The translations under genes were made by a program, and so were the position numbers. A stretch of 36,361 nucleotides of DNA from Petrimonas sp. Lineage in GTDB: Bacteria > Bacteroidota > Bacteroidia > Bacteroidales > Dysgonomonadaceae. The stretch spans positions 1 through 36,361 of the forward strand of contig JAQVEB010000002.1 of assembly GCA_028698105.1 (NCBI GenBank), in the 5' to 3' direction. Shown one piece after another: positions 8,619 to 9,207 of this stretch. Each line of letters opens with the position of its first letter. Position 1 is the stretch's first letter. The notes below the pieces were generated by a model that was not told the DNA's origin, did no database searches, and worked only from the letters and a program-made list of their open reading frames with translations.

Positions 8619-8640
8619 CACCCACATTTTGAAGACGATT

Positions 8641-8715
8641 CGGGATGTAGCACAGTCCGGTTAGTGAATCCCGTTTGAGACGGGAGGGTCTTGAGTTAGA
8701 AATGTGAGGTATGCA
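8641..8715 (+). pseudogene. Degenerate tRNA-Pro-like sequence
   Basis: It aligns along its length with the intact tRNA-Pro 108 nt downstream: CGGGATGTAGCACAG, the D-loop AGTCCGGTTAG, a 5-bp anticodon stem TCCCG/CGGGA with loop TTTGAGA, then TTAGAAA in place of the T-loop TTCGAAT. The T-stem no longer pairs and the 3' acceptor strand is lost (GGTATG instead of GGTACCCCG). The anticodon position reads TGA. It is probably not charged. The anticodon stem differs at most pairs from the real tRNA yet still pairs perfectly. Confidence 0.65.
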
Positions 8716-8748
8716 TATTGCAAGCAATAAATTTAAAATCTAAATATT

Positions 8749-8823
8749 CGGGGTGTAGCGCAGTCCGGTTAGCGCACCTGCTTTGGGAGCAGGGGGTCCC
8801 AAGTTCGAATCTTGGTACCCCGA
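8749..8823 (+). tRNA. tRNA-Pro(UGG)
   Basis: Complete cloverleaf. The acceptor CGGGGTG pairs with TACCCCG (one G-U), followed by discriminator A. The D-arm is GCGC..GCGC, the anticodon stem CCTGC/GCAGG with loop TTTGGGA (anticodon TGG at 8784-8786), the variable region GGGTC, and the T-arm CCAAG/CTTGG with loop TTCGAAT. CCA is not encoded. It decodes proline codons, with U34 wobble allowing it to read all or most CCN. Confidence 0.96.
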
Positions 8824-8832
8824 CGAAGAAAC
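8815..8832 (+). repeat. Left copy of 18-nt tRNA 3'-end direct repeat
   Basis: GTACCCCGACGAAGAAAC spans the tRNA-Pro 3' end and the first nine bases after it. The identical 18-mer recurs at 9161-9178 beyond the GIY-YIG ORF. The layout resembles the attL/attR repeats left when an element inserts at a tRNA 3' end. Confidence 0.85.
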
Positions 8833-8862
8833 CACTTACATAATTTTGTGAGTGGTTTTTGT
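8829..8862 (+). terminator. Terminator after tRNA-Pro
   Basis: AACCACTTAC, loop ATAATTTT, GTGAGTGGTT (one G-U pair) and a T-rich tail. It ends the tRNA transcript and sits 15 nt before the GIY-YIG ATG. Confidence 0.8.
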
Positions 8863-8876
8863 TTTTACTGTACGGT

Positions 8877-9122
8877 ATGTTTTATTTGTACATTCTTCAA
8901 TCTGAAAAGACCGGAAAGTTTTATATCGGTTCCACCGGAAATCTGGAAGATAGGCTGCTTCGCCATAATTCAGGACGAAGTAAATCAACCAAAGCAGATT
9001 TGCCGTGGAAATTGCTTTATACTGAAACTTTTTTAAGCCGCAGTGAAGCTATGAGACGCGAAAGCGAAATAAAGAGATGGAAAAGCCATGAGAAGATCGT
9101 CAGGTTAGTGCATCCCGATTGA
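8877..9122 (+). CDS. Small GIY-YIG endonuclease ending inside a tRNA-like sequence
   Basis: 81 aa single-domain GIY-YIG nuclease (UPF0213/YhbQ-like size). LYIL (4-7) and FYIGST (15-20) form the GIY-YIG strands. Arg26 is the likely catalytic arginine and the AMRRESEIK helix (59-67) supplies the metal-binding glutamate. The ATG at 8877 is chosen because MFYLYIL is the usual family start. The last residues, VRLVHPD and the stop, are encoded by sequence homologous to the tRNA-Pro D-loop and anticodon arm (9099 onward). The gene lies between two 18-nt tRNA-derived repeats and just after the tRNA terminator; no promoter of its own is clear. A role in moving or maintaining the cassette is inferred. 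A housekeeping nuclease is the alternative. Confidence 0.88.
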   Translation: MFYLYILQSEKTGKFYIGSTGNLEDRLLRHNSGRSKSTKADLPWKLLYTETFLSRSEAMRRESEIKRWKSHEKIVRLVHPD

Positions 9123-9178
9123 GATCGGGAAGGTCACAAGTTCTCCCGATGCTCGGGATTGTACCCCGACGAAGAAAC
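9099..9178 (+). pseudogene. Second tRNA-Pro-derived remnant with insertion in the T-loop
   Basis: Starting with GTCAGGTTAGTGCA it follows tRNA-Pro from the D-loop to the 3' end and on into the flank (GACGAAGAAAC). The anticodon arm is replaced by a 7-bp hairpin, TCCCGAT/ATCGGGA. The T-loop is interrupted after GTTC by TCCCGATGCTCGGGA, itself a hairpin. The 5' third of a tRNA is missing; its place is occupied by the end of the GIY-YIG ORF. The final 18 nt (9161-9178) are identical to 8815-8832. Confidence 0.75.
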
Positions 9179-9207
9179 AGCGAAGAGAAACTCCTCGCTG
9201 TTTTTTT
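9178..9207 (+). terminator. Terminator after the tRNA-derived cassette
   Basis: CAGCGA, mismatch, GAG, loop AAA, CTC, mismatch, TCGCTG and seven T's. It follows the right-hand repeat just as the hairpin at 8829-8862 follows the left one. It points only rightward and does not serve the converging rhamnosidase gene. Confidence 0.8.

Follow-up and report, generated by a model that had tools for sequence, protein, structure and literature searches.

In this work we have examined a short cassette beside a tRNA-Pro gene in a stretch of 36,361 nucleotides from Petrimonas sp. (contig JAQVEB010000002.1), which we call the window. The cassette consists of an intact tRNA-Pro gene with its terminator, a small gene for a GIY-YIG nuclease and a displaced tRNA-Pro remnant with a second terminator, and it is preceded by another tRNA-Pro remnant (Table 1). 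Throughout the text T1 designates the 5' tRNA remnant, T2 the intact tRNA and T3 the displaced downstream remnant. An initial annotation, made from the sequence alone, had listed all parts from T2 to the second terminator, and each of them was found where it had been placed; the third tRNA-like copy upstream, T1, had been overlooked. The same annotation had suggested a minimal element that adjoins a tRNA, and our analysis supports this suggestion but shows a more complex object than was claimed, with a remnant upstream, loops exchanged for hairpins, a mirrored 5' arrangement and tandem arrays. The cassette belongs to what is apparently a widespread, tiny and so far undescribed selfish element that inserts into tRNA genes.

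The tRNA-Pro cassette and its nuclease

T1 is 73% identical to T2 over 64 nt (direct repeat D1, 8638-8701) and has a changed anticodon arm, TCCCG-TTTGAGA-CGGGA, at 8669-8685. Neither ARAGORN nor Rfam recognised it as a tRNA, and T2 alone reached the Rfam thresholds, no other known RNA family being matched. The downstream copy had been described as only the 3' part of a tRNA. A second tRNA-like copy is indeed present, but it spans the D-loop to the 3' end, and two of its loops are replaced by hairpins, both of the TCCCGA..TCGGGA form. T3 overlaps the end of the nuclease reading frame: the residues VRLVHPD and the stop codon are encoded, as had been noticed, in a segment (9099-9124) with homology to the tRNA D-loop and anticodon arm. 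The repeat of 18 nt, which starts at 8815 and again in T3, was confirmed as exact at the reported spacing; it had been taken for a tRNA 3' end and in fact comprises 10 nt of the tRNA 3' end and 8 nt of trailer. The terminators after T2 and T3 are unlike each other. The nuclease gene is the only gene between T2 and T3, and no tyrosine or serine integrase is encoded there. Nor is the cassette a group I or group II intron or an intein: T2 is contiguous and intact, and the window has no Rfam intron match.

Table 1. Parts of the tRNA-Pro cassette, in window coordinates
Feature	Position	Strand	Basis or remark
T1, 5' tRNA-Pro remnant	8640..8701	+	tRNA positions 1 to ~61, break in T-loop
T2, intact tRNA-Pro(TGG)	8749..8824	+	ARAGORN; Rfam RF00005, 64.8 bits
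Intrinsic terminator after T2	8829..8870	+	inverted repeat I3 8829-8858, then T run
81-aa single-domain GIY-YIG nuclease gene	8877..9122	+	open reading frame; Pfam PF01541 62 bits, E 6.5e-17
T3, displaced tRNA-Pro remnant, D-loop to 3' end	9099..9170	+	direct repeats D2, D3
Hairpin TCCCGATTGAGATCGGGA replacing the T3 anticodon arm	9113..9130	+	sequence; pattern match
Hairpin TCCCGATGCTCGGGA in the T3 T-loop	9144..9158	+	sequence
GTACCCCGACGAAGAAAC, exact 18-nt repeat of 8815-8832	9161..9178	+	spacing 346
Terminator after T3	9172..9206	+	inverted repeat I2

The protein is a bare GIY-YIG domain, modelled confidently by AlphaFold2, with a predicted local distance difference test score (pLDDT) of 94.1. 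Six residues, Y5, Y16, G18, R26, H30 and E62, do not vary across 35 related sequences, and the catalytic Tyr, Arg and Glu are among them. The domain match, the conserved Tyr/Tyr/Arg/Glu and the predicted fold together make the protein a member of the GIY-YIG superfamily. Among solved structures, UPF0213 and Slx1 come closest to it in both sequence and fold, closer than I-TevI. The ratio of nonsynonymous to synonymous substitution (dN/dS), for pairs with measurable dS, lies between 0.06 and 0.22, which corresponds to purifying selection. No defence system was matched with PADLOC. We also considered a viral origin and rejected it, since the protein has no relative among viral contigs, none among plasmids and only weak phage matches.

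Sibling cassettes and linkage to tRNA genes

A search of the same genome for the GIY-YIG family returned six genes: uvrC, a broken gene that is unrelated, and four short ones. Each of the short genes lies directly 3' of a tRNA gene on the same strand, tRNA-Pro in the window and tRNA-Val, tRNA-Met and tRNA-Ser elsewhere, and after each comes a second, hairpin-interrupted copy of the 3' end of its own tRNA and then a terminator. That all four short genes of the clade share this context puts the arrangement far beyond chance. The Ser cassette is the simplest: the start codon follows the tRNA two bases on, and the open reading frame (ORF) is followed by GGGTTCGAA, an insert and CCCCCCGCTTCCGC. Hairpin-altered remnants with no nuclease gene nearby stand at tRNA-Asn, tRNA-Asp and tRNA-Gly of this genome (L039, L045 and L042), and these are probably relics of lost elements. 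On contig 221 of the genome (L001) a GIY-YIG gene of another clade is split by a TAA stop and is not near a tRNA.

The profile of the clade matches 241 of 395 sampled Bacteroidota genomes, with up to 13 copies in each, often in clusters of fixed period. The initial annotation had proposed to look for an excess of such genes near tRNAs, and this excess is clear. For 80 Bacteroidota clade members the contig extends 800 bp or more to either side of the gene. In 72 of these a tRNA on the same strand lies no more than 500 bp away, against a chance expectation of ~1% per locus, and 17 anticodon types are represented; four of the eight unlinked members are array copies with the tRNA further off. None of 22 other short GIY-YIG genes, found with the general Pfam model, is linked in this way (Fisher test, 5e-16). 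In an independent set of named genomes, which spans Bacteroidota, Cloacimonadota, Fidelibacterota, Chlorobiota, Ignavibacteriota, Balneolota and lineages of the Candidate Phyla Radiation (CPR), 51 of 61 clade members are tRNA-linked, and Seramator thermalis is among the window's close relatives. In draft genomes a contig often breaks off some 50-130 bp ahead of the nuclease gene (L076, L078, L090, L183 and others), so that counts of array length and of tRNA linkage come out too low.

Most of the linked loci (63/72) have the order seen in the window, tRNA, nuclease gene and 3' remnant, and the remaining nine are mirror images, in which a 5' remnant and the nuclease gene precede the intact tRNA (tRNA-Ser, some tRNA-Pro, tRNA-Arg, tRNA-Ala). 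To judge from their sequence, the remnants are not simply decayed tRNA genes. In tRNA-Ala remnants the anticodon arm (positions 27-43) is cleanly swapped for TCCCGA..TCGGGA; the replacement is in the T-arm in those of tRNA-Asp and tRNA-Gly(gcc), tRNA-Ser remnants have D-loop hairpins, and those of tRNA-Asn and tRNA-Met have other hairpins. When all 68 loci of the 3' type are counted, without the 800-bp flank filter of the linkage count, a TCCCG..CGGGA hairpin stands beside the stop codon in 36 (25 of the 29 at tRNA-Ala, tRNA-Gly(gcc) and tRNA-Asp), and the ORF end overlaps the tRNA-like copy in 32. The expectation that the downstream repeat always matches the 3' end of the local tRNA holds in most loci but not in all. 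The nuclease-remnant unit also occurs in tandem copies at fixed period, and at L074 a single tRNA-Asp is accompanied by five nuclease copies. At L012 (contig 3 of genome G014) about eight tRNA-Val-like copies are arrayed with two nuclease copies, and the pseudo-tRNAs among them have an 8-nt anticodon loop, TCTTAAAA. Two tRNA-like genes at L070 (1501-1575 and 2263-2338, 763 bp apart) flank an ORF of 184 residues and have hairpin-like anticodon arms (TCCCGATTTCAAATTCGGGA) and UCA-like anticodons; no GIY-YIG gene is present there.

Probable movement into tRNA genes and competing explanations

Does this element move? Empty orthologous sites, which the initial annotation had asked for, were found in two settings, and the window's own family is among the groups that have them. 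The cassette of the window adjoins aspS, and six relatives (L253, L254, L255, L258, L261 and L263) have an empty site at the orthologous position; within one genus the filled tRNA-Ala locus L191 corresponds to a single clean tRNA-Ala with the same neighbours at L192 and L193. Presence of the element is patchy within one genus. A tree of the protein, whose resolution is limited by its 89 alignment columns, requires 46 changes of tRNA-type label compared with 89.6 after shuffling (0 of 200 shuffles as low), the types clustering across families. One-clade origin of the tRNA-linked genes is not rejected (approximately unbiased test, p-AU 0.87), and of the 25 controls all but one cluster with each other. 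These independent results, together with the terminators described below, indicate that the element moves between lineages into the same site.

The footprint of the insertion can be read from the terminators. At the tRNA-Ala loci of one genus the terminator after T2 is element-borne and common to several species. At L231, L242, L098 and L147 it has no match among empty relatives (scores of at most 18), whereas the terminator after the last T3 matches those relatives with scores of 34-36.5. At L161, T2 and its terminator match other species (the allele of L230 and the terminator of L228/L244), T3 and its terminator match L232, and the tRNA alleles of T2 and T3 differ. In these five tRNA-Ala loci a foreign 3' end has been joined to the resident gene and the resident 3' end has been displaced, which is the trace required if a tRNA 3' part, a terminator and the nuclease gene are inserted together into a resident tRNA gene. 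It is in this form, a foreign terminator after T2 and the native one after T3, that the rebuilt tRNA 3' end of the initial annotation was seen.

We hypothesize, with a probability of roughly 0.72, that the cassette is an intron-less, minimal homing element of tRNA genes which regenerates the tRNA that it invades. Since the foreign terminator follows T2 and the native one T3, the mobile unit would consist of the tRNA 3' part, its terminator and the small GIY-YIG gene, together with a short hairpin-ended tRNA stretch. The nuclease would break a resident, empty tRNA gene, and host recombination would then copy the element in from a donor, with tRNA sequence as the homology arms. The resident 5' half with its promoter would join the incoming 3' half, by which a working tRNA would be regenerated, and the resident 3' end and terminator would be pushed downstream as the non-functional T3. 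A hairpin in place of the remnant loop may keep the right-hand junction from being cut again. The outcome of the recombination step is seen directly when the sequences of filled and empty loci are compared.

Several observations weigh against this hypothesis. In several filled loci (L098, L231) the sequence of T2 is that of the tRNA at the empty site, so T2 itself should be a target if the nuclease reads tRNA sequence alone. A single insertion does not account for the upstream T1. The protein lacks a DNA-binding domain, and the solved structures closest to it belong to structure-specific nucleases and not to homing enzymes. Of 43 loci that can be compared, 22 have like terminators after T2 and T3, a finding that local duplication would fit too, and at the window site neither terminator is assignable as native. 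Two additions to the scheme were considered and rejected. One was a recoded, cut-resistant tRNA, for the anticodon stem of L191 is unlike that of the empty L192 and L193; it was dropped because elsewhere filled and empty loci share an allele. The other was that T1 is part of every insertion; remnants of the T1 type also stand alone, at tRNA-Asn, tRNA-Asp and tRNA-Gly and at the nuclease-free tRNA-Ala loci L225, L228 and L249, and T1 may therefore have been left by insertions that were earlier or of the 5' type. How does a catalytic domain of 80 residues without a DNA-binding domain pick one tRNA type? The question can be tested. A possible, though rather doubtful, view is that of a natural 'cut and rescue' system that extends across the FCB group (Fibrobacterota, Chlorobiota and Bacteroidota) and the CPR: the bare catalytic domain might attack one type of essential tRNA gene while the element supplies a working tRNA, and the remnant that overlaps the nuclease gene would then be functional and not debris. 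The hairpin-remodelled pseudo-tRNA could in that case be an immunity site, or a structured DNA or RNA cofactor that gives the specificity for the tRNA type.

It is unlikely, but deserves attention, that a structure-specific nuclease like Slx1 or UPF0213 processes TCCCGA..TCGGGA hairpin ends in the manner of REP-associated tyrosine transposases (RAYTs) and their repetitive extragenic palindromic (REP) sequences, and that tRNA genes are entered through hairpin-like DNA and not by sequence-specific cleavage. Besides the nearest structures and the hairpin at the stop codon, a dispersed palindrome speaks for such a process. The palindrome TCCCGATnnnnATCGGGA occurs at 19 places in the window's own genome (including L025-L038), which are intergenic and often lie in the loop of another repeat hairpin, and across Bacteroidota it is enriched over a reversed-pattern control. 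With the element copies removed, its median number is 8 in genomes with the nuclease and 2 in those without (p 4e-10; within-family permutation p 0.0035), compared with 1 and 1 for the reversed pattern, and this association keeps the REP/RAYT-like explanation alive. We rejected the palindrome as an element-specific marker, because its copies are scattered far outside tRNAs and because the correlation with the nuclease, although real, is imperfect: some genomes are rich in it without the nuclease, or the reverse. Moreover, about half of the 3'-type loci lack the palindrome and have other hairpins instead (Asn, Met, Ser, Lys), and ordinary homologous recombination fully accounts for the foreign and native terminators.

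That nothing moves, and that the tRNA gene was duplicated locally in tandem with the GIY-YIG gene hitch-hiking and the extra copies decaying, seems very improbable to us. Such an origin would suit the arrays of identical units, the loci with like terminators after T2 and T3 and the T1-type remnants at tRNA-Asn, tRNA-Asp and tRNA-Gly without any nuclease, but it is already disfavoured by the terminator footprint, in which T2 terminators are foreign and common to several species, and the nuclease is under purifying selection and its clades follow the tRNA type across families. We give hardly any credence to a module of use to the host, which by nuclease-driven amplification would raise the tRNA dosage or protect it: fixed-period arrays are present in this clade, and SegB of the T-even phages, a free-standing GIY-YIG homing endonuclease tied to tRNAs, drives their tandem amplification (PMC13096335), but the arrays here multiply the nuclease and the broken tRNA and not the intact one, as at L074, and presence is patchy within a genus.

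If the homing hypothesis is correct, this is a very common mobile element of Bacteroidota, and many pseudo-tRNAs and unusual tRNA annotations of these genomes are explained by it. That it has no name so far is apparently due to the look of its parts, which resemble a small nuclease gene with scattered pieces of tRNA. We found no description of it in an open-access library; subscription papers were outside this coverage, and its novelty is therefore provisional.

Relation to known systems

REP/RAYT systems combine an HUH (Y1) transposase with flanking REP palindromes. The present element shares with them a small, hairpin-flanked nuclease gene and a palindrome dispersed in the genome, but its enzyme is of the GIY-YIG and not the HUH type, and its link to the dispersed palindrome is a statistical one. 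Islands and integrative and conjugative elements (ICEs) whose integrases target tRNA genes regenerate the tRNA 3' end on insertion, and their far end keeps a partial repeat. Both features recur here; however, no integrase is involved, each unit measures ~350 bp, and recombination takes place at a variable tRNA loop and not at a fixed att core. In CPR bacteria, GIY-YIG genes have been found inserted within rRNA genes and were termed sparse and outside homing (PMC11270868). They resemble our case in that GIY-YIG genes occupy essential non-coding RNA genes, whereas here an intact tRNA is regenerated. With SegB the element has in common a GIY-YIG gene co-located with many tRNA isotypes, microhomology between tRNA and nuclease, and tandem amplification. 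Unlike the phage-borne SegB, it has no relative on viral contigs, its matches to phages are weak, and a displaced tRNA remnant is part of it.

The closest known analogue is provided by the mobile ORFs (mORFs) of fungal mitochondria, for example in atp6 of Allomyces and in atp6, atp9, cox2 and nad3 of Glomus, where the endonuclease gene brings a foreign 3' part of the host gene, which keeps the gene working, and the native 3' end is left downstream (PMC3630166). In both systems a foreign 3' part travels with an endonuclease gene and displaces the native 3' end. The differences lie in the target and the tools: here the invaded gene is a bacterial chromosomal tRNA gene, the terminator travels too, the enzyme is a bare GIY-YIG domain of 80 residues, the remnant loops are replaced by hairpins, and a group I intron, a protein fusion and a LAGLIDADG enzyme are all absent. 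Perhaps, then, a homing gene can persist in an essential RNA gene without an intron, by carrying the end of that gene along.
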